A stretch of 36,605 nt of DNA from Spirogloea muscicola (Eukaryota > Streptophyta > Zygnematophyceae > Spirogloeales > Spirogloeaceae). The first letter of the stretch is position 1; each line of letters starts with the position of its first letter. The position numbers and the translations under genes were made by a program. The stretch covers positions 153,373-189,977 of the forward strand of contig WELB01000215.1 in NCBI GenBank assembly GCA_009602725.1, in the 5' to 3' direction. Positions 184 through 36,462 of the stretch are shown one piece after another. Under the pieces are notes generated by a model. The model was not told the DNA's origin. It was given only the letters and a program-made list of their open reading frames with translations, and made no database searches.

Positions 184-420
184 GAAGAAAGTGCTCGCCC
201 ATTGAGAATAGGGGCTGGAACAACCAGCCCGAAAAAGAATGAACAGAGTACGAGGAAAGGAATGTGGATTGGGCGGTGAGGGGAAATGATCAAAGAGGAA
301 GCCAGAGGAAGCGCTAAGAAACCAAAGCACACAAAGAAAGAAAGCAGCTACAAATTACTCAGTAACCCCTGCTAAGCAGCCGCAAATCAGAGAGGCTAGG
401 GTCCTGGAAGTGGGTCCCAA
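184..420 (-). mobile_element. LINE 3' fragment, tail T1
   Basis: Read on the minus strand, 420-359 encodes a LINE C-terminus ending SDLRLLSRGY with stop TGA at 359-361. The rest is the T1 3' untranslated tail. Its hairpin GGGCTGG-TTGTT-CCAGCCCC lies at 211-230 and the tail ends near 184 in a GCACTTTCTTC motif. The same tail recurs at 3730, 7585, 7865, 19690 and 35080. The copy is 5'-truncated at about 420, where another repeat begins. Confidence 0.75.
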
Positions 421-422
421 GA

Positions 423-600
423 GGGACGCTTCCAGGAGAAGGGCAGTGGCTGTGAGAGGCTAGCTCAGAAAAATCTCAAAGGGGGCCAGGGAAAGCGCAT
501 ATATTACGCAGGGAACCAAGTAGCTACGAAACACTCATTCACTTATTCCGGCGGTCTCCGACAAAGAGAAGAAGAAAGTGCTCGCCCATTGAGACAAAGA
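423..600 (-). mobile_element. mosaic of short LINE 3' tail fragments
   Basis: A degenerate T5-like hairpin lies at about 447-472 and a very short T1 tail end (GCACTTTCTTC side) at about 567-592. No coding part remains. This appears to be a chain of tiny 5'-truncated insertions. Confidence 0.5.
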
Positions 601-840
601 GAGGCTTCTGCAAACAGCCGCACGCCCCACCGCCTGCTGCCAAACCAATCCTTTGCGAGAGATTCGTGCACGCCCAGCATCGAAACAATGGCGTGCCGAC
701 GGCGGTGGGGCCCGCCAAGCGGCCAGGAGTGGCCAGGCCTGGCACCATGTCAGGCGTGCCGGCCCAGCCGCTAAGTGGTCCAGGTTGAGCCACAAGATAT
801 TTTGGGCCACCGTCCAAATTGTGGGTGGGGCCGGGACCCT
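601..840. other. GC-rich stretch without recognisable gene
   Basis: Open frames exist on both strands but none shows a recognisable domain. The GGCCAGGCCTGGCACCATG-type wording at about 730-780 recurs at 35600-35650, so this is probably part of a further repeat family. Confidence 0.4.
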
Positions 841-1000
841 CGGCGCGCAGGCCGAGCTTTGCCGGCGGCCTCCGGCTTCCGTCAGGGCGACGTCTTTCTG
901 CCGGCTAGCTACTCAGACCTGCCTCTCCTGACTAGAGGTTACTGAGCGTTCCCTGGCTGATGTCTTAGTCCTAGTCTTTCGCGGCTCGGAGTAAGGAGCG
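841..1000 (+). mobile_element. LINE 3' fragment, C-terminus plus start of T2 tail
   Basis: Codons 841-945 read RAGRALPAASGF...SYSDLPLLTRGY and end in TGA (943-945). This closely matches the minus-strand copy ending at 36092. The following bases (GCGTTCCCTGGCTGATGTC) are the T2 tail start found after that copy. The tail is cut at about 1000, where the next LINE copy begins in the same orientation. Confidence 0.75.
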
Positions 1001-1004
1001 TAAG

Positions 1005-1470
1005 TATAATCACCCTCCAAGCGATGCCTTCGCGGCACTGGCCATTAACGTACACGGGGCCTTTGGCAGTGGCTGGTTGGATCTCCTCCAGCGGCTTGCC
1101 TGGGAGGCCATCGAGCGGCGGCAGGTTTCGCCAGGCTTCAATGCTGCCGGCTCCCTCGCGCAGGTCTTTCGGATGAGGCTGGCGGTCTCGCCACAGCGCT
1201 CTTTGGCTCATGCGATATACGCTCGCGCCGGCCGTGCTATGGCTGCTCCTTCCGGGTCTCGGCAGAGTGCCGCTTTTCCTACTCCGAGTTACTCTGATCT
1301 GCTGTTGCTCACACGTGGATACTGAGCATCCATCTGCATCTTCCTCTGCACCGTCTTGCATTTTGTAGTGTAGTCCTTTTTCGGCACTACTTTCTTTGGC
1401 TTTGAACATTGTCCATTCTTTTTGGGTTGGCTTTGCCAGCCCCTCTTCTCTATGGGCGGGCACCTCTTTT
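1005..1470 (+). mobile_element. LINE 3' fragment, C-terminal domain plus T3 tail
   Basis: This is one of the longest coding remnants. An open frame runs from 1005 to stop TGA 1323-1325, about 106 codons. Its motif order is NVHGAFGSGWLDLL, AGSLAQVFRMRLAVS, AGRAMAAPSG and SDLLLLTRGY. The same order is seen at 7993-8310, 19830-20112 and 36092-36379. The pattern resembles the C-terminal end of restriction-like-endonuclease LINE proteins; this is inferred from motif style, not from a search. The T3 tail (1326-1470) carries a hairpin GGGTTGG-CTTTG-CCAGCCC at 1424-1442. No start codon is expected because the copy is 5'-truncated. Confidence 0.75.
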
Positions 1471-1474
1471 GTTG

Positions 1475-1565
1475 TCCTTCGTACTCCGGCTCCTTCAGAC
1501 CTTGTCCATTCCTTTGGGCTGGCCTTTCCAAGCCACCAGTAAATCTGGCCGCGCTTCCTGCTCTG
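1475..1565 (+). mobile_element. LINE tail T2 (solo 3' end)
   Basis: This stretch contains CTCCGGCTCCTTCAGACC, then a GGCTGG-loop-CAAGCC hairpin (1517-1534) and the CCACCAGT-AATCTGG end typical of T2. Matching copies are at 34590-34670, 35980-36090 and 36385-36460. It directly follows the T3 tail. Confidence 0.7.
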
Positions 1566-1639
1566 CAAGGCTTCTGCACTTTCTCTGCAAGGCCTTTGTC
1601 TGTTTCAAATACACAAAAACTTCTGCAAGTGGGCCGGCG

Positions 1640-1770
1640 ACGTGGCGCGTGGCGGCTCGGGCCGAGCTCCCGGCAGCCCAGCGGTCGCCGGGTGTCAGAT
1701 CTTGCTTGACTCCGACATTCATTGGAGGGCGAAGGCGCGCGGTGTGCATGAATTGAAAGGGTGGCCAAAT
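1640..1770 (+). repeat. GC-rich dispersed repeat (GTGTCAGATC / CGCGGTGCACATG type)
   Basis: The order GGCGGCTCGGGC, GGTGTCAGATC, CGCGGTGTGCATGAATTGAA here matches 35720-35850. A shorter end match lies at 18750-18780, and reverse-orientation traces lie near 19575 and 29200. The family is not recognised and has no open frame of its own. Confidence 0.45.
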
Positions 1771-1825
1771 TCAATCAATACATTAGACATTACAAAGCGC
1801 TTTTCTGGCCCCAAGAAAGACTTCC

Positions 1826-2524: not shown

Positions 2525-2665
2525 AGGGGGTCAAGGGCCAGCCCAAAAAGAAAAAGAAATTGGACGCTTCTAGAAGAGGGCGGTGGCTGTGAGAGGCCAG
2601 CACAGAAGAAGAATGTACGGTGTTCGAAGGGGCCAGAGAAAGCGCTATAGAGAAAAGCGCGTTGT
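2525..2665 (-). mobile_element. LINE tail fragments (T5/T1-like)
   Basis: There is a hairpin GGCTGTGAGAGGCCAGC at about 2585-2602, with reversed CATTCTT wording beside it. A second partial GGGCTGGCCC motif lies at 2530-2548. No coding remnant is present. Confidence 0.5.
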
Positions 2666-3100: not shown

Positions 3101-3545
3101 GTGCGCTCAAGCAATGAGCACAACATTCCGAAGGTAAGACTTTCAAAGAACAGCACAATTGTAAGGCTGCTCACCACAGAAGAAAGACGACTTCTCGCAG
3201 TCGCCAGCAGGTTCGCGCAACGCTCACTAAGCGCACACGGCGTGGGCGCCGGGCTCTACGCTCCCGCGGACGCAGGCGCGAGTAGACGCAGGCGTGGTTG
3301 GCGCAGGCGCGATGGCCGCAGGCGCGGCAGGAGGGTGAGGTTTGCCAAGCGAACTGCTTGGCAGGGCTCGCGCGCTCCGACATGGGCCTCCTCCCTCCCT
3401 CTGGCATCTGGTATGCATGCATCGAGTAGTGACCTTTATGTTTTGACCCGTGGTTATTGAGCGGGTCAATCTGCTGTGGGTTATGTAGATCTTTAAATGT
3501 GCTTGCCTTTGTACTTGGCCATTTGGCCTACATTTGTTTCTAACG
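3101..3545 (+). mobile_element. LINE 3' fragment, tail T4, with internal GCGCAGG repeats
   Basis: An open frame 3101-3460 ends SSDLYVLTRGY with TGA 3458-3460. The T4 tail runs to about 3545 with the GGCC-ATTT-GGCC hairpin at 3520-3531. Upstream of the conserved C-terminus, 3237-3335 is an imperfect repeat of GCGCAGGCG units. These make Arg-rich nonsense and probably replace the original sequence. Confidence 0.6.
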
Positions 3546-3554: not shown

Positions 3555-3700
3555 TTCCTCCCTCACTCCCTCAGCTCATCTGACTTGCTACTGCTAACAC
3601 GGGGGTATTGAGGGCGCCCTGTCTGCCTAGCCTTTGGCTCCGTCATGAACACCTGTATGCATCTGGCTGGCAGTTTACAGCCGATTCTTCAATATAGCAG
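3555..3700 (+). mobile_element. LINE 3' fragment, tail T6
   Basis: SSDLLLLTRGY ends in TGA at 3609-3611. The T6 tail (GGGCGCCCTGTCTGCCTAGC...) follows, with hairpin GGCTGGCAGTTTACAGCC at 3664-3682. It forms a near-identical direct pair with 3890-4040. Confidence 0.7.
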
Positions 3701-3719: not shown

Positions 3720-3875
3720 CCCTTACTGAGTGATTCGTAGCTGCTTTGTTTCTCTGTGTGCTTGTCTTTCTTAGCGCTTCCCCTGGCCGCCTTCTCGTAC
3801 TCTGTTCATTCTTTTTGGGCTGGCTTTTTCAGCCCCTATTCTCAATGGGCGAGCACTTTCTTCCTTGCAGCAGCC
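3720..3875 (+). mobile_element. LINE tail T1
   Basis: Bases from TGAGTGATTCGTAGCTGC through the hairpin GGGCTGGCTTTTTCAGCCC (3818-3836) to GCACTTTCTTCC are a full T1 tail in plus orientation. It sits between the two T6 copies. Confidence 0.75.
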
Positions 3876-3884: not shown

Positions 3885-4040
3885 CGCAGCGGGGTCGCTC
3901 TTCCTCCCCTCAGCTCATCTGACTTCCTACTGCTGACTCGGGGGTATTGAGGGCGCCCTGTCTGCCTAGCTTTTGGCTCCGTCATTAACTCCTGCATGCA
4001 TCTGGCTGGCAGTTTACAGCCGATTCTTTAATATCAGCAG
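3885..4040 (+). mobile_element. LINE 3' fragment, tail T6
   Basis: SSDFLLLTRGY stops at TGA 3948-3950. The T6 tail carries its hairpin at 4003-4021. This is the second member of the direct pair with 3555-3700. Confidence 0.7.
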
Positions 4041-5166: not shown

Positions 5167-5362
5167 GAGTATCTCAAATCATGGAAATTAACCTTAGAAG
5201 TGCGTACTTCTCTTCTTGTTGCAAGTCGCATTTGTGACCAGCATCTACCTGCACCAGAGGTTGCATATGAAGCTCAAACAGGTGCTTGACGGCAGCTTGT
5301 TGGCCTGCGCAGCCCAGTTGGGGCACATAACGATCCCGGTTGCTGGCTCCGCTCAATGTTAG

Positions 5363-5600
5363 GTGGAAATGCGTGACCTGCGATAGTGGCGACCATATAT
5401 CCGTTGACCCCTTCAGGAGCTGCCACGTGCATTTTGAGCCTGTGGAAGGAGCATCGCTGGTGCCGCTGACTTGTAATGTGTGAGGCTTTTGGCAGAAGGC
5501 TTTTCCTACTTGGCAAACGCGAATAATCATCCCAAGCACTATCAAGTGGCGCTTCGCAAGTGTCACTTTGTCCTGGCCATATGGAGACTCCCCAGCCAGA
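5363..5600 (+). pseudogene. copy D of the secreted Cys-rich family, one exon remnant
   Basis: After an acceptor TGTTAG (5357-5362) the frame reads WKCVTCDSGDHISVDPFRSC...EPVEGASLVPLTC. It matches exon 3 of gene A (33418-33833, minus) and gene B. TGA at 5481-5483 interrupts it. The homology then resumes in another frame (LAEGFSYLA ... YQVALRKC, about 5493-5575), so one frameshift is present. No first exon, signal peptide exon or 3' exon of this family is seen nearby. An isolated, dead fragment in plus orientation, like copy C. Confidence 0.65.
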
Positions 5601-6092
5601 TCGCTTGATCTTGTGCAACACGACCTAGGAGCTCTTTAAGGGGCTGCGCCATGACAGGCTGCTGACAACAGCTCTCTGCACGACCACTAGACGATGAGTG
5701 CAGGGATGCAACGTGCACCGACCAGATGGGCGGTACTGCTGGCACTGGCTATGGATACGTTGCTACATGCTGCTCTACGGGTATATCATGACAGCACATG
5801 CTCCTAACGCTTGTAATGTGTTCGCTTTGCTTAGATACAGGCCTCATATGAATATGAATTTAGGTATGGTCGTGCATTTGTTAGTCATGACTTGCATGTA
5901 AAGTGGAGGCAAGTACGGACTTGCTTCTATGACGTCCGGCCAGTAAGTGTTTGATCGTCAGATGCTCCAACAACTTTGCCGCTGCATGCATGGGCAGGTG
6001 CTAAATAAACCACACCGTGGACTTGCGAGCCAATATGCACTGGTGAGAGACGAGATCGCGGATCTCAACAAAGTACATCCTGGATCCCTCCA
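5601..6092. other. no gene recognised
   Basis: Moderate GC sequence with short open frames only. No repeat tail or domain is seen. Confidence 0.35.
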
Positions 6093-6684: not shown

Positions 6685-6775
6685 TACAAAGGGGGCGAGG
6701 GCTGTGAAATGCCAGCCCAGAAAGAACGAACAAGGTCCAAAGGACCGAAAGGCGCCAAAATCACACAGCTATACA
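6685..6775 (-). mobile_element. LINE tail T5
   Basis: Hairpin GGGCTGTGAAATGCCAGCCC at 6699-6718, followed by reversed CATTCTTTCTGGG-type and GGTCCTTGTTC wording. Matches the plus copy at 19100-19165. Confidence 0.65.
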
Positions 6776-7584: not shown

Positions 7585-7695
7585 AAAGAAAGTGCTCGCC
7601 CACTGAGGATAGGGGCTGGAAAGCCAGCCCAAAAGAGAATGAACAGAGTACGAGAAGGGGGCCAGGGGAAGCGCTAAGAAAAGCAAGCACACACT
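7585..7695 (-). mobile_element. LINE tail T1 (solo)
   Basis: Hairpin GGGGCTGGAAAGCCAGCCC at 7612-7630 with the full T1 end. Truncated before any coding sequence. Confidence 0.7.
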
Positions 7696-7864: not shown

Positions 7865-8318
7865 AAGAAGAAGAAAGTGCTCGCCCATTGAGAATAGGGG
7901 CTGGAACAACCAGCCCGAAAAAGAATGAACAGAGTACGAGAAGGGGGCCAGGGGAAGCGCTAAGTAACAGAAACAAAGCTGCTACGAGACACTCAGTAAC
8001 CCCTGCTAAGCAGCCGCAGATCAGAGATGCTGGGCTCCTGGAAGTGGGTCCCCTGGCCAGAGCCAGAGGCAGCAGCGAGGGCTCTGCCGGCACGAAGGTG
8101 CAGCGCCCGGGCCATGGACCTCTGCAGCGAGACGGCCAGGCGCATTCGATACACTTGCGCCAGTGACCCGGCTGCAGGGAAGTCAACCGGCTCCCCATGG
8201 AAGCGCCGGGCGATGGTGTGGCGGGCGAGCTGGGTGAGCAGCTCGAGCCACCGAGCGCCAGCGCCCCATGTGTGTCGATGGCCAACGGGAAGAACTCGTC
8301 TTCCCGCGGATGATCCAT
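7865..8318 (-). mobile_element. LINE 3' fragment, C-terminal domain plus T1 tail
   Basis: Minus-strand coding starts near 8318 with DEFFPLAIDTHGA, then ARWLELLTQLARH, AGSLAQVYRMRLAVSL and AGRALAAASGSG, and ends SDLRLLSRGY with TGA at 7993-7995. A one-base deletion after HGA (about 8255) splits the frame in two. The T1 tail with hairpin 7897-7916 ends near 7865. Its 5' end abuts the 3' end of the T3 copy at 8322, so the two are head-to-tail. Confidence 0.8.
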
Positions 8319-8321: not shown

Positions 8322-8582
8322 GAAGAGGGGCTGGCAAAGCCAACCCAAAAAGAATGGACAATGTTCAAAGACAAAGAAAGAGGTGCTGAAAAAGGACTAC
8401 ACTACAAAGTGCAAGATGGTGCAGAGGGAGATGCAGATGGCTGCTCAGTATCCACGTGTGAGCAACAGCAGATCAGAGTAACTCGGAGCAGGAGAAGCGG
8501 CACTTTGCCGAGACCCGGAAGCAGCAGCCATAGCACGGCCAGCCCGCGCGTGGACCGCATGAGCCAAAGAGAAGCTCTAAAG
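8322..8582 (-). mobile_element. LINE 3' fragment, tail T3
   Basis: The same T3 tail as 1326-1470, here in minus orientation, with hairpin 8327-8346 and the coding end of a C-terminus upstream (TCTCGGCAAAGTGCCGC wording shared with 1259-1275). The coding frame is decayed. Confidence 0.7.
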
Positions 8583-9139: not shown

Positions 9140-9220
9140 CAACGCTCTCCAAGAGGGGATTGGTGGCTGTGAATGGCCAGCCACAAAAGAATGAAATAGT
9201 CAAGGAGCCGGAAGGGTCTT
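9140..9220 (-). mobile_element. LINE tail T5
   Basis: Hairpin GGCTGTGAATGGCCAGCC at 9165-9182, followed by reversed CATTCTTTTGTGG wording. Confidence 0.55.
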
Positions 9221-9940
9221 TGACGAGGGTGTTTACGTGCCGGTCAAGCTTTCCCCGACCCTTGAACCCCTTCGGACTTCATTAGTTTGTGCCATTCGGC
9301 CCTCTTCCCCTACAGCATCCGAAGTGACTGTTGCCTTTGGTGCACAAGCAATGACAGATTGTGATGGCTGTAGCTCTGCTTCTCCATGTGTAATCTGGAT
9401 CACAGAGAGACAGGATACCTGTTCGGGGTTGGCAGCCAACTCCGGCTGCCGCGGGACCGACGAGCGTCCCTGCCAGCCGGAGTTTTCCGCCGCGGCAAGT
9501 GCGCCGAGCCGCATGCCCGGCTGACATGCCCCGCTGGCGGGTAGTGTGGCGCCACCAGGGCTGATGAAACACAGCCATCGCCCTGTACTGGAAGAACTTG
9601 TTATCCGCATTGCCGTCTCTGCAGAAGTGCGCGCGACCGGACCTTGCACGGACGGCACGGCCGTGGGCACAAGTCTGACCACCTGCTAGCGAGCCTAGCA
9701 ACGAGAAGACTCCGTCGCCCGTAGTGCAAATCCGCTCATGACCAAGACATTCGATTTATTGCGATACTGTTTGCACTTGGTTTGATATGCTCGCATCATC
9801 CTCCATTAGTACGTCAGCGATAAGAGGAATGATACATGTCTCACCTATTGTGAGTCTGTGTTGAGTCAATGTTTGGAACAATTCCCTCATTTATCAATCG
9901 CAAAGGCACACAGCACGTCCTAATGAGCTCGAAAGGAAGA
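9221..9940. other. no gene established
   Basis: Frames of 95 codons (plus, 9237-9524) and 149 codons (minus, 9233-9682) overlap. The plus frame has several Cys but does not match the Cys-rich family. I cannot support either as a gene. Confidence 0.3.
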
Positions 9941-9945: not shown

Positions 9946-10387
9946 TGTTGAATATTGTAATATGTTGGATCGGCGGGTCGGGGTGGATGACCATCCCGAC
10001 CGTCTCATTGGGCCCTTAAGAGTTTCCCCTGGATAAGGGAGGCCTCGGGCACAGGTCGGAACACTCAACATCTGAGGCCACGCGGTCACGCGCCCGTGCG
10101 CCCTAGCCCTGGCTGCCACCCACCTTGGGTGAGGGCGGAGCCTGTGCTGTCTGACTGTCTGTCTGAGATCTGAATCTGTTTGCCGCCATGAGCACATCTG
10201 CATCTGAGCCGCTGCGACGAGGTCGCTCTGCTGGGCCGCCGCCTCAACGAGGGCGATCTGCTGGACCTGGAGGAAGTCCAATGGAGGAACACGACTGGAG
10301 GAATGCAGATTCTCAAAACGCTTTGTACAACCCACAGGGACAGGTACAGGAGCAGGCACAAGAGCACACAGCCCAGGAACACTTTCA
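9946..10387 (+). repeat. copia 5' LTR
   Basis: Begins TGTTGAATATTGTAATATG and ends CA just before the primer site. Length 442 bases. The 3' third contains an ATG in a strong Kozak-like context (GCCGCCATGAG, ATG at 10188) that opens the gag frame. Confidence 0.9.
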
Positions 10388-11300
10388 GGTTATGGGCCCA
10401 CCCCTCGGGGGTTCTCTGGGTTCGATCCCTGTTCTAACTCCCAAGCTTGGGAGAGATACAAACTGTTTAGTCTGGAAGTATAGGATGAAGAAGATGCTCC
10501 AGTTTCACAATGTTTGGGATGCTGTAGAGCCTCCAGCTAATCGAGGGCTTCATCGGCCTTTCTCTCGTGAAATGTCATAGCCTCAGCGAGCCGTGCCGCA
10601 AATCTGGATGATGAAGAGGTGATAGGCATTGTCAACCTGTCCCTGGCTAGTGGCATCTGGGAGTACCTTAAAGACAAGATTGAGAGCCGCGGAACTGACA
10701 AGGCTTACCACCTCAGCATGCGCTTGCGCGATGCAGAAAGGAGGAAGATGAGTCAATTCAGGCATTTGTCAGCAGAGTACAATCATTGGCTCTTCAGCTG
10801 CATGCCATTGGCGTGGAGGTCCCAGTCCGATTCCTAGTTCTGGCCATACTTATGGGCCTCCCGACTGCGTATAATATTGTTAGAGATACATTGCAGATGG
10901 TCAGCGCCGACAACCTGACTGTGGAATCTGTGCTGGCTCGACTCCTTCATAAGGAACGAACATTGGAGGAGCAACACTGACATCTGACAGGGTCTCTGGC
11001 TGGCTCTCTGCCGACTTCACAGGCAGCACGGCTGGCAAGCAGCCACTCTGAGCAAGATCTCCGACATCACTTGAATCAATCGAAGCTTCATCAGCAAACT
11101 GTTGCTCGCAGTCTTCGGAGCGGGACTGGTGGTGGTAGTCCTCTGAATGAAGATCAGTTTGCAGGGTGGAACAGGAATCACATGTATCCTAGAACTTGCT
11201 TCTACCGCCGTGAGCCTGGACATGTGATCAACGACTGTCCCAAGAAGAAGGCTCTGAAATTTAATGGCAATAGTAGGAGAGGCAGAGGCAGTCATGCTGA
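10188..11300 (+). pseudogene. gag: copia gag
   Basis: Nucleocapsid precursor of the element. The frame opens at ATG 10188 inside the LTR and reads through the primer site into KLGRDTNCLVWKYRMKKML, the typical copia gag N-terminus. It stops at TAG 10578-10580. The homology continues in another frame (NLDDEEVIGIVNLSLASGIW, about 10600-10730) and shifts again near 10735 to ESIQAFVSRVQSLALQLHAIG and a C-terminal LTVESVLARLLHKER. A zinc knuckle follows at 11197-11238, but its second Cys is Arg (CGC at 11206-11208): C-x2-R-x4-H-x4-C. At least two frameshifts and a stop make it non-functional. Confidence 0.85.
10388..10402 (+). other. primer-binding site, initiator tRNA-Met anticodon-arm type
   Basis: GGTTATGGGCCCACC directly follows the LTR. 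It is the reverse complement of the anticodon arm of eukaryotic initiator tRNA-Met (GGTGGGCCCATAACC), not of its 3' end. This is the half-tRNA priming known for Drosophila copia. Confidence 0.8.
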
Positions 11301-11309
11301 GGGAGAGGC

Positions 11310-12730
11310 ACATCTGTCTAGACGGTCTGATAGGTCAAATTGTGATAGCTGGCTGATTACAGCGGAGCGTCTCATCACCTCACCTACAGGCGAGATTGGC
11401 TCCATAACTATCAATCCGTTCCGGATTTCACCATTCGTCTGGGTGATGACAGTGAGCAGCCAGCTGTTGGAAAAGGAGAAGTGCAGCTGCAAATGCCTAC
11501 TCTTTATGGCACTGAAACACAACTTCTGAAGGATGTCTATCATGCTCCTGATTTGGCATCGATCTCCTACCTGTATCCCAGCTCTTAGACAAGGGCTATC
11601 ATGTGACCTTCTACAGAAATGTCTGTACAATCATGAAATCTGGTGTTCCCATTCTGACAGGACGCAGGTCAGGAGATCTGTTCACCTTGAATGGACAGGT
11701 GCAAGTACAGGATGTGGGAATACAGACTCAGGTTGAGAAACCATTCTGGTGCAGAAACAGATGCAGGTTCAGGGCAGGGTAAATGTATCCGAGTCTGATA
11801 GCAATACTCTTGAGCAATGGCATGCTCGACTGGGGCATCCTAATATTCAGCGGATGAAGAAGCTGAGAGAGCATGGTGCATGGAGTAGAAACTCTAGTAC
11901 AAAATGTTGAACCTGAATTCTGTCGGAGCTGTGTACAGGGCAAACTCCACCTTCAAAAACCGCTTGCTGGTGAGCACTTTAGAGCTTCTACACTTCTGGA
12001 ACTGGTGCATTCTGATGTTTGTGGCCCTATGCAAATATCATCTTTAGGGGCAGCAGATATATTTTGTCCTTCATTGATGATGCCAGTCGATGGAGCAAGG
12101 TATATTTTCTGAAAAACAAGAGTGAAGTGTTGGAGAAGTTTATGCGTTTCAGAGCTGCAGTTGAGTGCAGACAGGACAGAAACTCAAGGCTCTTAGATCT
12201 GATAACGGTGGAGAGTACACCTCTAAAGAGTTTGAACGGTTCTGTCAGCAACAGGGAATACACAGGCAATTGACAGCAACCTATCGTCCTCAACAGAATG
12301 GTGTGGCGGAGTAGATCTGTTATGGAGATTGCAAGGTGCTTACTGTTCCATTCTTATACACCATCAGAGTTTTGAGCTGAGGCAGTCGCAACAGCTGTGT
12401 ACCTGAAGAATAGAATGCCTACTACTGCAGTGAAAGACATGATGCCACAGGAGTACTGTACTGGCAAGAAACCTACAGTTGCCCATCTTAGGATGTTTGG
12501 CTGTTCTGCGTGGGTGCATGTTCCTACTGAGATGAGACACAAGTTGCAATCCAAGGCTCGTCAGTGTGTTATGGTAGGATATGGTGAACACGTGAAAGCG
12601 TGGAAAATGTTTGATCTTGAGAACAGGAGGATGATCTTCAGCAGAGATGTAGTATTCGATGAGCAGAGAAGTCCTGACTATTCTGCATTTCTGTTACGGC
12701 CTTCTGAGACAGTGGGAGAAATGTAATGGT
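11310..12730 (+). pseudogene. pol: copia pol: protease end and integrase
   Basis: LKDVYHAPDL and QLLDKGYHVTFYRN (about 11525-11625) mark the protease-integrase linker. The integrase zinc finger begins WHARLGHPNIQRMKKL (about 11818) and ends CRSC (about 11928). The core keeps HSDVCGPM (D at 12013-12015), FIDDASRWSK (about 12070-12099), LRSDNGGEYTS (about 12190) and PQQNGVAE (E at 12309-12311). A short deletion directly after that Glu creates TAG at 12312-12314. TGA at 12373-12375 replaces the Trp of EFWAEAV. Frameshifts near 11880, 12045 and 12170 break the frame. Confidence 0.9.
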
Positions 12731-12879
12731 GGCCCGTACCTCAAGAGCCAGATATTGTTGAGACTGTGGAAGCAGGGTCTGAATCTGGCGATGAAATGGA
12801 AACAGGGGCAGGAGGTGAAGATCTGGAGGAGAACGCTGCTACGTTTGGAGTATCTAGGACAGACATTCGTGTTTTTGCT

Positions 12880-13610
12880 GCTGAAGTGTTGCATGAGCCT
12901 CTCACAATGCAAGAGGCCATGAGCAGTGATGCAGCCCTCAAGTGGAAAGCAGCAGCAGAAGCAGAACTAAATTCAATCAAGGAGAACAAAACTTGGGATT
13001 TGGTAGAGTTACCTGTTGGAAGGAAAGCGATACTCAGCAAATGGATGTTCAAGATTAAACTTAAGGGTGATGGTTCTGTCGATCAGTACAAAGCACGCCC
13101 TTGTTGCTAAAGGTTGTGCTCAGAAGGAAGGGATTCACTACAATGAGACATTTGCTCCAGTGGTTAAAAATAGTGCTGTCAGAAGCTTGCTGGCTATGGC
13201 AGCTATTCGTGATTTAGAGGTAGAGCAGATGGATGTCACCACAGCCTTCTCTAATGGTGATCTTGATGAAGAGATCTACATGCAACAGCCTGCAGGTTTT
13301 GAGATGAAAGGCAAAGAGAATCAAGTGTGCAAGTTGAAGAAGCGCTGTATGGACTTAAACAGGCGCCCAAGGCCTGGTATGCACAGATTGACACTTTCTT
13401 AGTGAACCGAGGTTTCAAGAGATCTGAGGCTGATCACAGTGTGTATGTGAGGGAGAAACCTGCTAAGGTGGTTCTAGCACTGTATGTTGATGATCTGATC
13501 TTACTGGGAGACTCAGCTACTAAAGTGAAGAGAGTAAAGCGAGAGCTGAGTAGTAGATTCAAGATGAAGGATCTTGGGCCCTTGGAGTATTTTTTGGGTA
13601 TTTAGGTCAA
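12880..13610 (+). pseudogene. pol: copia pol: reverse transcriptase
   Basis: Motifs in order: AEAELNSIKENKTWDLVELP (about 12958), KWMFKIKLKGDGSVDQYKAR (13036-13095), a one-base insertion near 13096 before LVAKG, then ETFAPVVK, MDVTTAFSNGDLDEEIYM (about 13228), LYGLKQAPKAWYAQID, and the catalytic YVDD at 13483-13494. The frame stops at TAG 13603-13605 after EYFLGI, where copia proteins usually have Gln or Glu. All catalytic aspartates are present but the frame is broken at 13096, about 13340 and 13603. Confidence 0.92.
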
Positions 13611-14469: not shown

Positions 14470-14475
14470 TGGGAG

Positions 14476-22593: not shown

Positions 22594-22787
22594 CTTCCGG
22601 CCGACCTCGTGGCAAACGCGCGCGTTTTCTCCTTAACGCGCCCACAAACGAGTCCTCGTCAGCGTCCGATGTGGCGCCTCCGTGTCGAGTGACCATGACC
22701 GGCCCGCAAGGCGTAAAACCGGCCGTTCCATACACCGCGCAACACGTACCCCTCGACCCGACCCGGTGACCAAGTGTAAACAGGCCC

Positions 22788-23439: not shown

Positions 23440-23535
23440 TGTGTTTTAGCGCTATTCTGGCCCCTTCGGATTTGGACGTTCCTTTTTCTGGGCTGGCCAA
23501 TCACAGCCATCGCCCTCTGCTCTTTCCTTCTTAAT
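23440..23535 (+). mobile_element. LINE tail T5/T7
   Basis: Hairpin GGGCTGGCCAATCACAGCC at 23490-23508, preceded by TTCCTTTTTCT and a CCCCTTCGGATTTGGAC block. Confidence 0.6.
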
Positions 23536-23862: not shown

Positions 23863-23984
23863 CGGAGAAATTTAGGGCTTAGGTTTATAACCAAGAGATT
23901 GAAGTTTTAGGCAAGGTTTACGACTTACTGGTTCTCTTTAGTACGGGTTTTAAATAAGTAATGTATTCTTTAATGAAGACGTGG

Positions 23985-24050
23985 GAGGAAAAGTTTAGCC
24001 CAGAAAGAATGAATAAAGACCCCAAAGGGGCCGAAAGGCGCCTTTTTTGG
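23985..24050 (-). mobile_element. LINE tail T5, partial
   Basis: Reversed TCATTCTTTCTGGGCTAAAC and the GGCGCCTTTCGGCCCCTTTGG block, as at 6720-6755. The hairpin's second arm is lost. Confidence 0.45.
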
Positions 24051-25188: not shown

Positions 25189-28100
25189 ATGTATGGCGAA
25201 GTCGGCGGCCATCGCACTGTGTGTGTCAACGACCGCGCAGACTCGGAGCTCAACCACAAGGTGCGCCGCTGCACCGCCAGACGAGCTCTGCAGCAGCAGC
25301 GGCACCACAGAGACCTTCGACTCGTCGGCCCTGCAGTGTCGATGACAAGCCTCACCGCCGTTGCCTCGTGTGCTGGTGCAGAGCAACTCGGTGTCCACGA
25401 CCAAGTACACGGCCCTCACCTTCCTCCCCAAGGGCCTCTTCGAACAGGTCTGTGGGAGGCCCGAGCCCGCACATGCGGCAGCCATTCCTAGCGCAGCAGC
25501 TGCACTTGCAGCCGCCCTTGGTGTGACTGCCAGCCTTCAGTTATTCTCGTGCAGCACTTACCCCATCCAATTGTGGCCGCTCAGAGAGGACCCTCCAGGT
25601 TAGCTGAATTGTGAGGACAAGCGTTGCTGCTGCGTTGGGGCTCTCTGTCTGGTCATCTGATCCGACGCCGCTGTCCTGGCACGCCTGCAGTTCCGGCGGG
25701 TAGCCAACTTCTACTTCCTGCTCATCTTGTCCACCACCCCCATTGAATAAGTGGATTGCCCTGCTCTGCACCAGGCGCCTCTGTGGCCTGCATTTAGCCA
25801 CAACCCAAGAGCAGCGGCCGGGAAAGGCAGAGAAAGGCTTATTTCTGAGCATTGAATGCGCTCCTCAAGGTTAGCATATTGTTGGTGGAATATCTAGAGA
25901 GGGTCGCTGCAGAGGTTACCCACAAGATTTTCTGCCAGCAGCTTGATCCTGCTTCTTTTGTGGCGCGTAGCCCTGTGCACCCAATCACACATGTTGGCTC
26001 GCTCGTCCTGGTGCTGGCCGTCCCCCTCATGAAGGAGGCATTCGAGGACAGGGTGAGCAGCTTGGAAGTTAGAAATGGGACTTGCCTGCTTCTTGGCTTT
26101 TACATCAGGGAGAAAGTATGCACGAGGGCGCTGTATAGAAAACAGCAATGGCTATCATGGTAACGGTCTTTGAAGTGGATTGAGGAAGCTAAATTTGCTG
26201 CACCCTTTGTTGCCGCATCTGCAGATAAGGTAGAACAGTGACAAGGTGATCAATGCCAGTCCGACAGAAAGTCTCAGCTGGAGAGAGTGGGTGTCCGTCC
26301 CCTGGAGTGCAGTTGAAGTTGGCGACATAGTCAGGGTGAGTCAACAGCAATCATGCTATGGAAGTTCTATATGTAGCACCTTACACTAGAGTCTGTCCCT
26401 CTGCCTCCTGCATTAACAGTGACAAGGAGCTTGTTGGACAGCCAGGCGAACTCAGATCTGCTCCAACGCCGTAGACGTAGATGCACTGACGCAGTTTGCA
26501 AGAGCTGAACCTTTGTGCAGGTCAAGTGCGACCGATTCTATCCGGCGGACCTTCTGTGCTTAGCCAGCACCAATGCGGACTGCATTGGTGCTACGTTGAG
26601 GTAGGTGACCGCTGGCCGTTGCACAGGATCCGGCAGCCCTCTGGTGCTTCAGTTGCAGCTCTGCACTGCCCGCTTTGGCTGCATCCAGCAAACGCTCCTC
26701 TTGGGGTCACCTTGCAGACATCCAACCTTGATGGCAAAACAAACCTTAAGATAGGCAAGGCGCTCGAACGGACTTGGGAGTGTGTGACCTCTCAAGCAGC
26801 TGCTGAGTTCAAAGGTGAAGATGTACTGTGCAGTCAACAACATCATTAGTCCTTCATCTTTCAAATATATGAGAAGGATTAGGTGGACTATGCAGCTGAT
26901 GCCCTACACACATAGCATCAAAGCGTAAGCAGTGCTCTGGGAAGGAGTGATTAAGCAGGGATCACTGGATTTCACAGGCACAGTGGAGTGTGAGCAGCCT
27001 AACAACTCGCTGTACACTTTCACTGGCAATCTTGTGACTGGCAAGCAGACTCTTTCAGTGACTCCGAACCAAATACTGTTGCGAGTGAGGTCCGTCAGAT
27101 GTCCACAGTGTCGGTGTTCTGATGCTCCAGCACTGCCTGGCGCGCAGGTGTCTCATAAGTCTGTCTTGCTTGCTTTGTCGCCCTGCTGTCTGGCCATGTC
27201 AACATGATCTGGAGCCTTGCAGGGATGCCGATTGCGAAACACAGAGTGGATCGTGGGTTGCGTCATTTTCACGGGTCATGAAATAAAGGTGAGTCGTCAC
27301 TTACCTCATGTCATGCACAGGGGATATGGCAGGCACTTGACAATGCAATCTGCAGAACCATGTCCATATGCCCTTAGCATAGCATAGGTGGCCTGGAGGT
27401 GATCTGTACTATGCTGGGGGAGCTGGTTGTGCAGGCTGTCATTGCTTGCATTGAGCTGCAAAATAGGCAGCATAGAAGACCATAGTTGCATGCCTGTTGC
27501 TTGATCCCTAAGGTCAGCAGTTGATCAAGTATTGCAAAGTGACCACACTGGTAAGGTTCGCTCTGTAGAGTTGCCAGCAAGAATCATAGGGCAGCCAAGG
27601 CAGCCAATGGAGGAAGGGAGGAGAAGCCAAGATATCAGCTGACCTTTGTGACTATAGACAAGAGCTGACTTACCAACTTCGGCCTTGGTCATATGACCTA
27701 GACCCTCCTTACATCGTACTGATCCGTGAGAGCTACTGATCTAGCACAGTGCTTCTGTTCCTTCAAGGTGATGATAAACGCCATGGACATCCCATCCAAA
27801 CGTAGCACGCTGGAGCGCAGGCTCGACAAGCTGATCCTGATTCTCTTTCTTATCCTCTTTTGTATGTTGCATTGGTGGCATTGGGAGGTCAGCAATGAAC
27901 CTGATACCGTCAAGTAGTGCATCATGTTCTTCAGCAGGTCTCACTTTACTTTGTGACCTTGGGCAGTACAACTCACTCATCACAGCCAATCTGGAAATAC
28001 ATGCTAGATGCTGGGGAGTACATGCTGATAACCGGCACTACCTTATGCTTATGATAGTGCGGTGTTGTGTATGATGGTGTGCAGTGCCGTGTCTCTTGAT

Positions 28101-29335: not shown

Positions 29336-29487
29336 CCTGCCACTCTTCCTCCCCGTGCGCCTCCGAGGCTCGTCCATCTCCCTATCCTCTCTCTGCTTCT
29401 TCAGGGTCCTCCGGCGGTGCTCGGGCCGCCGGCACTCACCCATTGACTCTTGCCAAACTGCGGCTGCCGCAGACAGCGAGATTGAGG

Positions 29488-31067
29488 ATGGCTTCAGAAG
29501 CTCAGCCGCTGCTCTTCCGGTACCTTGTGCTGCTTGCCGCTCTTGCACCATTCAGCTGCCACCATGTTGATGCTGCCAAGGAGGAACTTGAGTACGCCAT
29601 CCTCAGTGACGAGATCGGGGAGATGTTTCAATCAAGGGGGTTACCAGATGGCGTAACGACTAACAGCGAGGATTGCATCGTGGTGCATCACACAGGGAGC
29701 ACTTTGAGGGCAAGGCTAATGATCAAACAATTTCCTTGCTACTGCTACCATTTCTTGCGTGCGCACTCTCGTCCGTTACGTGACTTTGAAGCCACTGCAA
29801 CCGTAACAATACTTAAACTTAATGCAGCCCTAAGACAAGCATATTTTGCATAGATTTGCAGAGCTGGGCGTTTCATGTACATCTCCTGCAATGTGGACCT
29901 TGCATTCACTACTCCTCTGTCGATGTGGCAGATGGTGCTGTGTGACATGTGAGGCAGGGGACCACATGGCGGCTTAACGCTTCACCAGCTGCCATGTCAA
30001 GCTGGTGAAGCCCGTGGAAGGAGCCTCTTAGCTCGTGTTACTTGTCAGGCTATTGACCATACAACAGAGGGAGTCTCCACGCTCGTAGAAACAGGCTACT
30101 ACCCCAAGCTCTTTCCCACAGCGCTACGCAAGTGCACCTGGCCTCATGAGCGTGTCCCTCCACTCCGGCCTCATTGCACAAAGCTCTGCAATGATACCCA
30201 GGAGTGTACAAAGGGCTGCAGCGGGAGAGGCGGCTGGCAAATGGTGGCTCCACGTGCTCAAATAGCGGCTGTCAACAGCAGTGCAGCGGCGCTTTTGGTG
30301 CACCGCAGGCGATTGTGGCTGTGCTGGAGATTGCAACCCATTGTAGCGATGCCTAAACCCACTTGCATGAACCCCCGGGGGTCTAGGGTTTAGGTCTAGG
30401 GTTCTGAGTACTTCACATGCATGGAGCCATGCATGGACGCCTCCTGCACGGTCAGCAAATGGTTCAATTGTATGTAATACTAGACTGCAACTTTTAAGAA
30501 ACCATGTTTCTCTGCATGTTACTGCTTGTCTCATTGCTTCTTTCCTGGCAGGCGGATGCACTTGCTGAAACGTAGGCTCCAATGGCAATACCAACTGCCA
30601 GTGCGTAGTTACACCAGATGCAGGTGAACATTGCCCACGGGAAAGAGCTGCCAGCCTGTTTTTAGTTGAGCTTCAATATCTGGCTGGACGAGATTCTACT
30701 TGCAAAGTCCTTTCTCTTTGCTAGGAGCCCTACTTGCAAAGTCCTTTCTCTTTGCTAGGAGCCCTTCAATGCTTGACACTAGTGTCAGCTCCAGCAAATT
30801 GCATCAATCTTGCCTCCACATATCTGCTGTGAGTTGCTGTCAGTTTCTGATCTTGTCCTGTCTTGTGACTTGGTCATTGCCATGGCATTTTGTCAGATGC
30901 CACTTCCAATCTGTGGGGACCATGAATGTCCGTGTTTCAGCGATTCTGTCGCGCCTTTATGCAAATGTTCCACAGATGGATGTAAAGGGTGCTCGAATGG
31001 AGAAGTTGGATTGGGGAATAAAGGCATGGATTGTGTGGGCATCGATTGTGGACACTGTACTTTTTGA
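29488..31067 (+). pseudogene. copy C of the secreted Cys-rich family
   Basis: Exon 1 from ATG 29488 reads LLFRYLVLLAALAPFSC, then KEELEYAILSDE and TTNSEDCIVVHHTG, matching genes A and B. Its donor is AAG-GCTAAT instead of AAG-GTGAGT. A 15-base micro-exon (29862-29876) lies where gene A has one. Exon 3 (29932-30342) contains TAA inside GDHMAA-RFTSC, a one-base deletion near 30030, and further shifts near 30205 and 30300. Exon 4 (30552-30623) has TGA after GGCTC. A last Cys-rich exon (30897-31067: CGDHECPCFSD, LCKCSTDGCKGC, CGHCTF, TGA) has no counterpart assigned in A or B. Too many lesions for function. Confidence 0.75.
30697..30764. repeat. 34-bp tandem duplication
   Basis: The unit starting TACTTGCAAAGTCC occurs twice in a row, at 30697-30730 and 30731-30764. 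Both units are identical. It lies in an intron of copy C. Confidence 0.95.
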
Positions 31068-32816: not shown

Positions 32817-34267
32817 TTATGTCAGTCGAGGCTGACAGACATAAGTACTGCCATATGTCACGTTGTCGCATGTGCACACAAAAGCTGGTGGAGGGTCAAG
32901 AGCATCTTCAGCAGTGCAATTATTGCAATCCTCCGTCACTCCTTCAGGCATCCAGCAACAATCAATTGACTTTGTACCATCGCACGTTTTCTTCTTAGAG
33001 TAATAGCAATGCTTCTCGCAACAACGCGCAGCCGAATTGTCGCTCGTAGCCTTAATGTCACTGATGGAAGCTGTTGATACGCACTGGCAGTCGGTTATGC
33101 CACTGGTCCCTATATCTTGGCAAGTGCAACGGCCTGCCAGAAAGTAGCAACAATAAGCAGGAGCCATGGTCATCATCCGTAATCACGTTGCAGGTAACGA
33201 AATTTGGTGTGCAAGCATTGACGATTTAGATGGTGCTAAAAAAGGTACTTCACTGTAGACGTGAATGAGTACTCCTCTGTGGACGATTGCAGTAATTGTG
33301 TAATGTGCAGCCGTATGCATGGCTGGCCCCATGCTTTGGAACCAACACAACACTTCAAATGCATGTGAGACTATTTCGAATCTGGTATCAACTCAAATGG
33401 GTGGGGTAGTATCTTACACGAAGGCAGGCAGCCTCCGTCGCAGCCACAACTGCCTGTGGTTCCGCCAGGAGCGCCGCCGCACGGCTTGTTTCTGCAGCCG
33501 TTATTTGAGCACGTGGAGCCGTCACCTGCCAGTCGCCTCTCGCGTTGAAGCCCTTCGTAACGCTCCTGGGTATCATTACAGAGCTTTGTGCGATGAGCCC
33601 GGAGTGGAGGGACGCGCTCATGAGGCCAGGTGCACTTGCGTAGCGCTGTTGGGAAGAGCTTGGGGTAGTAGCCAGTATCCACAAGCTTGGAGACTCCCTC
33701 TGTCATGTGGTTGAGAGCCTGACATGTCAGACGAACTAAGGATGCTCCTTCCACGGGCTCGAATTTGACATGGCAGCTGGTGAAGCGATCAGCCGCCACG
33801 TGATCTCCTGCCTCACATGTCACACAGCGCCATCTGCCGCATCAAGAAGGTAGTAGTCAATTCCAGGGACCACGTCTCTGAAGGCTAACACGAGACGCCC
33901 ACCTCTGCTAATCTGCGCAGAGCTGCCTGTGTTCTGGGATGCACTGAGAAGAAGGGAGCGACACAGAAGAGACGGCCACCTCAGAGCATGATAGCTGCAG
34001 CAAAGGGGGCAGTTCGTCCACTCACCTTGCCCTCGAAGTGCAACCTGTGTGATGCACCAGGATGCAGTCGTCGCTGTTGGTCGTCATGCCAGCTGGCAGC
34101 CCCTTGGCGCGGAACATCTCCCCGGTCTCGTCGCTGAGAATGGCGTACTCGAGCTCCTCCTTGGCAGCGTCGACATGGCTGCAGCAGAAAGGTGCAACCA
34201 CGGCAAGCAGCACGAGGTAGCGGAAGCGCAGCCTCCGAGCTGCGTAAGCCAGACTGGATGTCGCCAT
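32817..34267 (-). CDS. gene A: secreted Cys-rich protein (unknown family)
   Basis: Four exons fit in phase: 34267-34026, 33904-33890 (15 bases), 33833-33418 and 33133-32817 (TAA 32817-32819), for 329 residues. ATG 34267 precedes a hydrophobic leader (FRYLVLLAVVAPFCC, then DAAKEELEYAIL), probably a signal peptide. Exon 3 gives CVTCEAGDHVAADRF, CHVKFEPVEGASLVRLTC, DTGYYPKLFPTALRKC, LCNDTQERYEGLQRERR and a Gly/Cys-rich end (GSCGCDGGCLPSC). Exon 4 adds CTCQDIGTSGITDCQC and about 15 more Cys (RCCEKHCYY, DCCWMPEG, DCNNC, VCTC). Donors are GTGAGT, GTTAGC and GTAAGA. Likely extracellular with many disulfides; role unknown. Gene B shares exons 1 and 3 and the start of exon 4 but then has a poly-Pro C-terminus. 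Confidence 0.7.
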
Positions 34268-34440
34268 GTGCAGGTAGCCAGATGGGCGAGCAGGTGTGGA
34301 GGCAAGAGCCAGGCGCGTCTGAGCCAAGGGCCGAGCACCCGCGGGACTCTCTCAGAAGCGGGAAGGGAGGGGGAGGGACGAGCCGCGGAAGGGCAGCGGG
34401 AGAGGGGGTTTAGGGTGGCGGAAATTCGCGGCTGCTGATA
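34268..34440. other. upstream region of gene A
   Basis: On the minus strand this is the 5' flank and probable leader of gene A. It has GAGGGGGAGGG-type purine runs near 34355-34410, comparable to the GA-rich tract upstream of gene B. No TATA-like box was singled out. Confidence 0.35.
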
Positions 34441-34489: not shown

Positions 34490-34680
34490 CGCTTCGTGGT
34501 CATGAACAACCCTCTGTATGCACCCTGGCTGGCTTTCACAGACGCTTTTTCGGCAGCAGAGAGAGGGAGAATTTGATGGGCGTGTCTTAGTCCTAGTCCT
34601 TCGCACTCCGGCTCCTTCAGACCTTGTCCTTTCCTTTGGGCTGGCTTTTCCCAGCCACCAGTCAACCTGCGGGTGAAGTG
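34490..34680 (+). mobile_element. LINE tails T6-like then T2
   Basis: 34498-34550 carries CATGAACAACCCTCTGTATGC and GGCTGGCTTTCACAG (T6-like). 34575-34675 is a T2 tail (TGTCTTAGTCCTAGTC...) with hairpin GGGCTGGCTTTTCCCAGCC at 34638-34656 and the CCACCAGTCAACCTG end. Confidence 0.65.
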
Positions 34681-34719
34681 GTGAGGTGGGAGGAAGGAGT
34701 GTGTATCAAGAAGAAGTGG

Positions 34720-34815
34720 CTCTCCCAATGGGGGCAAGGGCTGTGAAAAGCCAGCCCGAAAAGAATTGACAAAGATTTGACGGGGCAATGACGGAGGGGC
34801 CTAAAGCGCTATGGT
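34720..34815 (-). mobile_element. LINE tail T5
   Basis: Hairpin GGGCTGTGAAAAGCCAGCCC at 34738-34757, with CCCAATGGGGGCAAG on its outer side, the mirror of 35440-35455. Confidence 0.65.
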
Positions 34816-34869
34816 AGAACGGGTGGAGGATGGACCACTCAGTAGCTACGAGAGTATTAAGAGATGGAG

Positions 34870-35035
34870 GGGCCCTGTGTGGTCTATCGCATGCGCTTAT
34901 CGGTCTCCCTTAGGCGGTTCATGGCACACGCCTTGCATCTGCGTGCTGGCCGTGCTCTCACTGCAGCCTCTGGATTTCGCCAAGGGGATTGTTTTCCGGC
35001 AGCTAGTCTGTCGCAATTGAGGCTCCTCACTCGTC
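34870..35035 (+). mobile_element. LINE C-terminal fragment without tail
   Basis: The plus frame reads VYRMRLSVSLRRFMAHALHL, RAGRALTAASGFRQGD and SLSQLRLLTR. It is cut two codons before the usual GY-stop by the next insertion, which is in opposite orientation. Confidence 0.7.
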
Positions 35036-35077
35036 GAAGAAGAAGTGGCACTCCCAATGGGGGCAGGGGATGCGAAA

Positions 35078-35275
35078 AGAAAGTGCTCGCAAACTTGAGA
35101 ATTGGGGCTGGAAAAACCAGCCCGAAAAAGAATGAACAGAATACGAGAAGGGGCCCAGGGGAAGCGCTAAGAAATAGAAACAAAGCAGCTACGAATCACT
35201 CAGTCACCTCTGCTAAGCAGCCGCAGGTCGGAGATGCTAGGCTCGTTGAAGTGGGTCCCCTGGCCAGAGCCCCTG
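35078..35275 (-). mobile_element. LINE 3' fragment, tail T1
   Basis: Hairpin GGGGCTGGAAAAACCAGCCC at 35104-35123. The coding end SDLRLLSRGD with TGA at 35200-35202 (Tyr changed to Asp) extends to GTHFNEPS near 35262. Confidence 0.7.
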
Positions 35276-35460
35276 GCCAGCTGCGAGAAGCCAGCCCAGA
35301 AAAGAATTGACCAAGGTTCGGAGGGGCCTACAAGCTACTGAGTGGTCCCCTCCTCCTCCCGTTCTGACAAAGTAGGACCTCCGTCATTGGGCCCCTTCGA
35401 ACCTTTGTCAATTTATTTGGGGCTGACTTTTCACAGCCCTTGCCCCCATTGAGAGCCGCT
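35276..35460. mobile_element. LINE tails T5, minus then plus
   Basis: 35283-35335 is a minus T5 end (AGCTGCGAGAAGCCAGCCC). 35385-35460 is a plus T5 with hairpin GGGCTGACTTTTCACAGCCC at 35420-35439 and the CCCTTGCCCCCATTGAG end. Together they form an inverted pair. Confidence 0.6.
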
Positions 35461-35569
35461 TCTTCTTCTGTGTGGCCCTTGTGTGGCCAAGTGGGGGAGG
35501 GGGCGACTGGGGAGGGGCCAGAGACGAGCTGAAAGCCGCACACGCCAGCCGCCAATCGTTAGCGAAGGA

Positions 35570-35850
35570 AGGAGGGGGGCCCCACCAAGCGGCTCAAAGC
35601 GGCCAAACCTGGCACCATGCCCAGGCGTGCCGGCCCAGCCGCTATGTGGCTCAGGCGGGAGCCACCGTCCAGAATAGTGCGTGCCGCGCAAGCGGTCATG
35701 CGACGCGGCGCCACGCTACTCGAGCCGAGGCTCGCGGCGGCTCGGGCGCCGCCAGGTGTCAGATCGTGGTCGGCTTTTGACCTGCCAATCAGTCAATCAG
35801 AGAGGAAGGCCCGCGGTGCACATGGCTTGAATAGAAGGTGAATGGCTATC
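35570..35850 (+). repeat. GC-rich dispersed repeat, second copy
   Basis: Shares GCGGCTCGGGC, GTGTCAGATC and CGCGGTGCACATGG-TTGAA with 1640-1770. 35600-35660 shares CCTGGCACCATG, CAGGCGTGCCGGCCCAGCC with about 735-775. Confidence 0.5.
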
Positions 35851-35977
35851 CCAAAGCAAAAAAATTCGTGTATTTGAAACACATAGGCACAAGTACAAAG
35901 GCAAGCACATCTGTTCACAGCCAAAGTGAACAGCCAGCACAAAAGAATCGACAAGGTCAATCGGGGCCAAAAGCAGA

Positions 35978-36390
35978 AGGAAGCGCGGCCAGATTGACTG
36001 GTGGCTGGGAAAGGCCAGCCCAAAAGAATGGACAAAATCTGAGGGAGCCTGAGTGCGAACGACTAGGACTAAGACATCAGCCAGGGAACGCTCAGTAAAC
36101 TCTAGACAGGAGATGCAGGTCCGAGAAGCTAGCTGGCGGAAAGACGTCGCCCCGACGGAAGCCGGAGGCCGCCGCCAAAGCTGGGCCTGCGCGCAAGTGA
36201 ACCGCGAAGGCGAGGGACCGCTGCATCGAGACGGCCAAACGCATACGGAAAACCTGAGCGAGGGACCCGGCTACGTTGAAGCCGGGCTGCTCGCCCTGCT
36301 GCCCGAGGCGGCGGGCCGCTGCACGCCGCGCCAGGCGGTGGAGCAAGTCAAGCCATTTGGAGCCAAAGGCTCCGTGCACTCAGGCTCCCT
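35978..36390 (-). mobile_element. LINE 3' fragment, C-terminal domain plus T2 tail
   Basis: The minus frame 36379-36092 is uninterrupted: HGAFGSKWLDLLHRLARRA, AGSLAQVFRMRLAVSMQRSL, AGPALAAASGF and SDLHLLSRVY, with TGA at 36092-36094. The T2 tail follows to 35978 with hairpin 36003-36021. This is the reference copy for T2. Confidence 0.8.
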
Positions 36391-36462
36391 CAGACTTTGT
36401 CCATCTTTTGGGCTGGCCTTTCCCAGCCACCAGTCAATCTGGCCGCGCTTCCTCCGTGCACG
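36385..36462 (+). mobile_element. LINE tail T2 (solo 3' end)
   Basis: CAGGCTCCCTCAGACTTTGTCC, hairpin 36410-36427 and the CCACCAGTCAATCTGG end. It abuts the minus copy at 36379 in head-to-head orientation. Confidence 0.7.

Follow-up and report, generated by a model that had tools for sequence, protein, structure and literature searches.

A recurrent hairpin in the 3′-terminal tails of a putative LINE-like retrotransposon family of Spirogloea muscicola

A short GC-rich hairpin, GGGCTGG-loop-CAGCCC, recurs on both strands of a 36,605-nucleotide (nt) stretch from Spirogloea muscicola (Zygnematophyceae; assembly GCA_009602725.1, contig WELB01000215.1, positions 153,373 to 189,977). This raises the question of what the hairpin belongs to and why its sequence is kept. 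In the following, the whole stretch is termed the window and all positions refer to it. Our answer, to which we assign a probability of roughly 0.75, is that the hairpin forms the apical part of the 3′-terminal tail, the last 50–60 nt of the 3′ untranslated region (3′UTR), of a family of non-long terminal repeat (non-LTR) retrotransposons resembling long interspersed nuclear elements (LINEs), and that the reverse transcriptase (RT) of the element would bind it. The element family looks undescribed, and the signal is of a known kind.

The core GGCTG-N3..14-CAGCC occurs 25 times in the window, compared to a mean of 1.68 in 100 shuffled sequences (maximum 5; none of the 100 reached 25). The repeated presence of the hairpin, proposed in a first-pass annotation of this DNA, is thus confirmed, and at each of the 11 coordinates given there either the hairpin itself or a variant is present. 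A loose pattern, which tolerated up to two mismatches in the 12 letters of the arms, matched 67 places in the window and 23–51 in 20 shuffles; most loose matches are therefore due to chance. Out of the 67, 30 candidates were chosen by eye, based on a pyrimidine-rich upstream flank and a common downstream flank. Of these, 28 (2527 and 35275 were left out) were aligned together with a remnant at 18512, which gave the 29 rows used below. The hairpin classes, A to J, are our own labels. A covariance model built from the 29 rows found 34 matches in the window at E < 0.01, namely its own rows and five others.

The consensus of the alignment is GGGCTG-GC-NN-TT-Y-M-CAGCCC. In the loop, G was found in 26 and C in 25 of the 29 rows, followed by two variable positions, T in 23, T in 27, C or T in 27 and A or C in 27 rows. 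Both arms are conserved, whereas the middle two loop positions vary in letters and in length. The earlier statement that the loop changes freely is thus not borne out. The pairing, which was said to be kept, is retained for the inner five pairs (25 of 29 rows); all six pairs form in only 19. The flanks had been called unrelated, yet they align across classes and are therefore related. Furthermore, the sequence CATTCTTTTTGG, described as usually preceding the hairpin, is exact in only three rows, and CATTC occurs within 20 nt upstream in 12 rows. That nearly every tail carries the hairpin was an overstatement, as there are decayed copies without an intact stem, for example at 416–496, 23953–24030 and 35899–35968. 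A comparison with Rfam gave no match at the gathering score, and the tail patterns had no exact match in viral and prokaryote contig collections. Among the matches listed in literature searches on LINE tails, algal LINEs and R2, titles and abstract openings contained no description of this hairpin or of the protein end described next; no search with the hairpin letters was made.

The tails are linked to a common protein. The C-terminus SDLxLLTRGY* (at least 8 of 11 positions) was detected at 20 places in the window, compared to 0–1 in each of ten shuffled sequences, and in ten of the 20 the hairpin follows 53–129 nt downstream. In class A, the hairpins at 212–230, 7898–7916, 19724–19742 and 35105–35123 (all minus strand) have their coding sequence (CDS) end at 359, 7993, 19830 and 35200, i.e. 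129, 77, 88 and 77 nt upstream. The class C hairpins at 1424–1442 (plus strand, a G-U variant) and 8328–8346 (minus strand) both lie 99 nt from their CDS ends at 1325 and 8445, and the class H hairpins at 3664–3683 and 4003–4022 (both plus strand) both lie 53 nt from CDS ends at 3611 and 3950. A class D hairpin (36002–36021, minus strand) has its CDS end 71 nt upstream at 36092, and a class F hairpin (17972–17990, minus strand) follows a degenerate CDS end, whose stop codon is lost, 86 nt upstream at 18076. From an eleventh coding end (945), a class D hairpin with one broken inner pair (1516–1534, plus strand; loose search) is reached after discounting a nested insert. The twelfth (18443) is followed by a hairpin remnant at 18512–18528 (plus strand; alignment and covariance model), whose 5′ arm lacks the GGG. 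Five of the 20 coding ends (1931, 2337, 3460, 4090, 20290) lead to a sister tail described below, two (8613, 22788) are truncated no more than tens of nt beyond the stop codon, and the match at 18880 is probably due to chance.

The hairpins at 212 and 1424 were also found by the loose search and are contained in the alignment. The same holds for hairpins of class A at 3817–3835 (plus) and 7613–7630 (minus), class D at 34638–34657 (plus), class E at 6699–6718 (minus), 19139–19158 (plus) and 20673–20692 (minus), class G at 23490–23509 (plus, outer pair open), class H at 18605–18624 and 19448–19466 (both minus), and class B at 34738–34757 (minus) and 35420–35439 (plus), the latter two also serving as outer-helix rows (see below). 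The loose search further yielded two decayed, class G-like hairpins at 2073–2092 and 2584–2603 (both minus), a class I hairpin at 9164–9183 (minus) with T-A instead of G-C as outer pair, a class G-like hairpin at 9558–9577 (plus), which was also found by the covariance model, and an outlier, class J, at 20785–20803 (plus; 27.6 bits with the covariance model).

The C-terminal frame has evolved as coding sequence: across ten copy pairs, differences at the third codon position outnumber those at the first by a factor of 1.6–2.4 and those at the second by a factor of 2.0–7. The longest readable frame (993–1325, plus strand) was read as KERKYNHPPSDAF...SDLLLLTRGY* and as KERKYNHPPSDAFAALAINVHGAFGSGWLDLLQRLA...SDLLLLTRGY*; further C-terminal frames are found in a class D copy (36092–36379) and in two class A copies (7993–8271 and 19830–20107), all on the minus strand. 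The protein of the element could be read only over approximately its last 110 residues. Pfam and PDB profile searches with this C-terminus gave no credible match, no relatives were confirmed in the viral and prokaryote contig collections, and an AlphaFold model (predicted local distance difference test score, pLDDT, of 47) was unusable. A K-x2-KY...HGAFGS-W stretch resembles the region after the endonuclease motif of R2-type elements, a likeness that the Pfam and PDB profiles did not confirm. In R2-like LINEs with a restriction-like endonuclease, a PD-(D/E)xK nuclease domain follows the RT; no such region turned up in the truncated copies.

How did the copies arrive? For four of them, both ends could be defined. 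A 72-nt tail-only insert (36380–36451, plus strand), which contains the class D hairpin at 36410–36429 (plus; loose search), is flanked by a target-site duplication (TSD) at 36370–36379 and 36452–36461 (10 of 10 identical); when these flanks are joined, the frame of the older copy that it hit is open again around VDVHGAFGSKWLDLL. A 411-nt 5′-truncated copy (19697–20107, minus) has its TSD at 19687–19696 and 20108–20117 (9 of 10). A 5′-truncated copy of 201 nt (35079–35279, minus; TSD 35069–35078 and 35280–35289, 8 of 10) sits inside a class B tail and splits the class B hairpin, which lies at 35275–35297 (minus) and was not aligned; the inserted copy carries the hairpin at 35105. Finally, a 5′-truncated copy of 490 nt (982–1471, plus; TSD 972–981 and 1472–1481, 8 of 10) has inserted into an older copy, where it splits a class D tail, the uninterrupted homologue of which is found at 36063–36055. 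Note that two of the four TSDs match at only 8 of 10 positions. The 5′ truncation points of the 72-, 201-, 411- and 490-nt copies differ, whereas the 3′ end is of the same kind; in all four, the hairpin ends 22–29 nt before the 3′ terminus. The tails of classes A and B end in CTT-rich sequence.

Several other arrangements of tails were observed. Head-to-head pairs with their 5′ ends facing occur at 9164/9558, 20673/20785 and 35275/35420. For a similar pair, 36002/36410, a paired insertion was considered and dropped: here, one tail has inserted into an older copy, and the TSD is exact. At 569–627, a class A tail is represented by its 3′ half (TCTCAATGGGCGAGCACTTTCTTCTTC) without the hairpin; this tail either was truncated at the hairpin or has been interrupted.

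Given that several copies are as short as SINEs (short interspersed nuclear elements; 72, 201, 411 and 490 nt), they might be SINEs with a borrowed LINE tail. The first-pass annotation had pointed to such borrowing, known for stringent LINEs. However, no SINE body was seen among the copies read: wherever a body is readable, it consists of coding end or 3′UTR of the element itself, and the coding parts represent a single protein C-terminus whose substitutions follow a coding pattern. Tail sharing with a SINE is frequent in stringent LINEs but not obligatory. Moreover, the truncation points vary among copies, and a search of the window with ARAGORN yielded no tRNA, though a diverged tRNA head may have escaped it. 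We thus regard SINEs as an improbable source of these copies. The GC-rich hairpin near the 3′ end would also suit a rolling-circle, Helitron-like element. Helitrons typically have a CTRR 3′ end and are not known to make TSDs, whereas the 3′ termini found here are, for example, GCGCTTC and CACTTTCTT, TSDs of about 10 bp are present, and the 5′ truncation is variable. A Helitron-like origin is therefore very improbable, and LINE-like insertion is the preferred interpretation.

The same protein C-terminus is also followed by tails that lack the hairpin. Downstream of the coding ends 1931, 2337, 3460, 4090 and 20290, a sister tail with the motif TTGCCTTTGTACTTGGCC-N-GGCC was found. The example following the CDS end at 3460 (3460–3545, plus strand) contains GTGCTTGCCTTTGTACTTGGCC-N-GGCC; other sister tails are located near 1888, 2294, 4135, 20334 and 23220. 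A sister-type tail was also noted at 23239. Searching for the sister motif gave 14 matches, ten of which were judged to be copies; a small GGCC hairpin folds in five of these ten, and an outer helix like the one described below was not consistently seen in the sister tails.

Is it the structure or merely the sequence of the hairpin that is conserved? Conservation was measured on six class representatives that had been located by their coding end and not by the hairpin. Identity between them was 83% in the arms (88% without the remnant), 56–59% in the loop, 52% in the upstream and 37–39% in the downstream flank. Because the identity of the arms exceeds that of loop and flanks, the arms are selectively kept. 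The same pair is found at each inner position in 26–29 of the 29 rows, and none of the inner five pairs shows a two-sided change. The outermost pair is G-C in 14, U-G in four and U-A in one row and open in nine of 28, with a two-sided change in five rows. On the 29 rows, the covariation score of the hairpin (0.074) lies within the range of slid controls (0.024–0.100), though it was reached by 19 of 500 letter shuffles (mean 0.047). RNAalifold found no two-sided changes in the 29 rows, and covariation support was absent both here and in an 11-row alignment introduced below. Thus, the inner stem is almost invariant and does not show the covariation that was to be expected from the first-pass annotation. 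When eight hairpin tails were folded individually, the z-score was −4.5 for class A (hairpin at 7898–7916), −2.1 for class C and −1.8 to +0.3 for the other six.

These data bear on the possibility that the hairpin has merely been inherited by homology and that its conservation reflects a constraint on sequence, such as a linear protein-binding motif or a signal for 3′-end processing, and not on RNA structure. Near-fixed inner pairs that lack two-sided change, the common ancestry of all classes and the missing RNAalifold support are all in agreement with a linear motif. In contrast, a linear motif does not account well for the preservation of both arms while the middle of the loop varies in sequence and length, for the G-C, U-G and U-A forms of the outermost pair, though this pair is open in nine of 28 rows, or for some two-sided change in the outer helix. 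We consider a purely linear motif rather unlikely and regard it as more probable that the hairpin acts as an RNA structure at the tail of the element.

According to folding, tails of classes A, B, C and F may form a second helix below the hairpin by pairing of their two flanks, with a pyrimidine-rich internal loop in between. This outer helix was analysed in an alignment of 11 of the 29 rows, which represent the classes where it had already been seen, on a structure derived from class A. In these rows, 82.9% of the cells are paired, and two-sided change is found in five of the 12 pairs (seven cells). The score of 0.190 exceeds both shuffled controls (0.120 ± 0.019; reached by none of 500) and slid controls (0.038–0.084); however, it is favoured by the choice of rows, because these belong to classes that already showed the helix. 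Flanks swapped between classes pair worse, with p values of 0.007 (ten classes), 0.04 (nine classes, the odd class dropped), 0.011 (classes A–F) and 0.04 (classes A, B, C and F). An outer helix common to all tails was considered and dropped, as it could not be recognised in classes D, E, G and H. The second helix of classes A, B, C and F, with some compensatory change and mixed controls, is suggestive.

Several results weigh against our interpretation. With respect to the outer helix, RNAalifold predicts only the apical hairpin from the same 11 rows, and all seven two-sided cells sit in two class B rows and the single class F row. With one row per class, the margin shrinks to 8.75 versus 7.08 pairs of 12. 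Compared to shuffled flanks, pairing is notable only in class A (five of six copies at 0.01 or below) and in the odd copy of class J at 20785, with values of 0.08–0.86 for the remaining 22 of 28 copies. For these reasons, together with its derivation from class A and its absence from classes D, E, G and H, the outer helix is regarded as suggestive only. The lack of two-sided change in the inner five pairs counts in the same direction, and the sister tails, with their other motif, show that not all members of the family possess the hairpin. In a blind scan for direct repeats on either side, 28 copies could not be distinguished by score from 28 random places; the case for TSDs therefore rests on the four copies described above, the ends of which are backed by homology or an intact frame. 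Neither an RT domain of the element nor a full-length copy was seen in the window. The domain scan comprised 96 open reading frames (ORFs), namely 95 of the 101 with at least 100 amino acids outside a copia element and one shorter ORF, most of the shorter ones lying outside the scan; its single match was a weak one to VirD1. Taken together, the proposed structured RNA signal of a stringent LINE is partly supported, by the position of the hairpin near the 3′ terminus of 5′-truncated, TSD-flanked, LINE-like copies and not by covariation of the inner stem.

Comparable signals have been described. In ZfL2-1 and ZfL2-2, a stem-loop in the 3′ tail is essential for retrotransposition and is bound by the ZfL2-2 protein; between the two elements the loop determines specificity and the stem is exchangeable, although disruption of the stem or altered stem letters of UnaL2 abolished or reduced activity (PMC4176376). 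The tails studied here resemble those of ZfL2-1, ZfL2-2 and eel UnaL2, stringent LINEs of the L2 clade, in having a stem-loop in a LINE 3′ tail. In contrast to ZfL2, the arms of the stem are the most conserved part here. The plant element LINE1-1_ZM and ZmSINE2/3 have a 3′ end of about 50 nt with a putative hairpin, and in this L1 lineage the tail is shared with SINEs, conservation is found in the loop and the 3′ flank, and the letters of the stem vary with compensation (PMC3747384). Compared with that account, the stem letters of our element are near-fixed and no SINE was seen. Green-alga LINE tails are represented by RandI/Dualen of Chlamydomonas with SINEX-1, SINEX-2 and SINEX-4, of which SINEX-2 ends in (CTTT)n (PMC3747384). 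The CTT-rich ends of classes A and B recall this terminus; the likeness is one of description, and kinship is only a lead. For R2Bm and R2Dm, a requirement for the 3′UTR has been reported (PMC4176376); unlike in R2, the insertions found here are not at one fixed site.

Because no RT domain of this element, no full-length copy and no SINE body were seen in the window, we infer RT binding from the stringent LINEs ZfL2, UnaL2 and plant L1. By analogy with them, the RT of the element would bind the folded end of its RNA, and target-primed reverse transcription would then start from the bound hairpin end. Copies that lose the hairpin would leave no progeny, and copies once inserted would be free to decay.

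The surroundings contain further features. A copia-type LTR retrotransposon at 9946–14915 shows matches to gag, an SH3-like domain and RVT_2; its reading frame looks broken, and its LTRs (9946–10384 and 14476–14915) are 95.7% identical. The RVT_2 match of the window belongs to this copia element and not to the hairpin-bearing element. A possible DNA transposon extends from about 20810 to 22786, with GGGCCTGTYTACACTTG in inverted orientation at both ends and, between them, a weak Myb/SANT-like match (E = 0.015) below the Pfam cut-off. Three segments of about 1 kb each (16854–17873, 29337–30339 and 33387–34402) and 5361–5682 represent one sequence with 60–74% identity, which looks like a dispersed gene family; three ORFs from it had no Pfam match. 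Exons of a P4-type (phospholipid-transporting) ATPase are located at 26490–27204, where 26929–27204 matches PDB chains (best E = 6e-4) and the ORF 26490–26846 does not; this gene may be plant-like in character. Judged by the copia element and the P4-ATPase-like ORF, the window is eukaryotic.

One may tentatively imagine, as a possibility that is still doubtful, an undescribed clade of LINEs, which might be that of a green alga, with an RT that recognises the sequence of a near-invariant stem placed on a covarying basal helix, and with sister lineages that share the protein C-terminus but have swapped this apical hairpin for another, TTGGCC-N-GGCC. If true, the situation of the ZfL2 tails, where specificity lies in the loop and the stem is exchangeable, would be inverted, and the co-evolution of tail and protein specificity could be seen within one genome. 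How a LINE selects its own RNA has been worked out for a few elements only. Here, a single stretch of 36 kb contains no fewer than six tail classes that share a coding end, along with comparable 3′UTRs and a sister tail type. If full-length elements are recovered, these copies would provide a natural series for distinguishing the fixed from the drifting parts of a tail.

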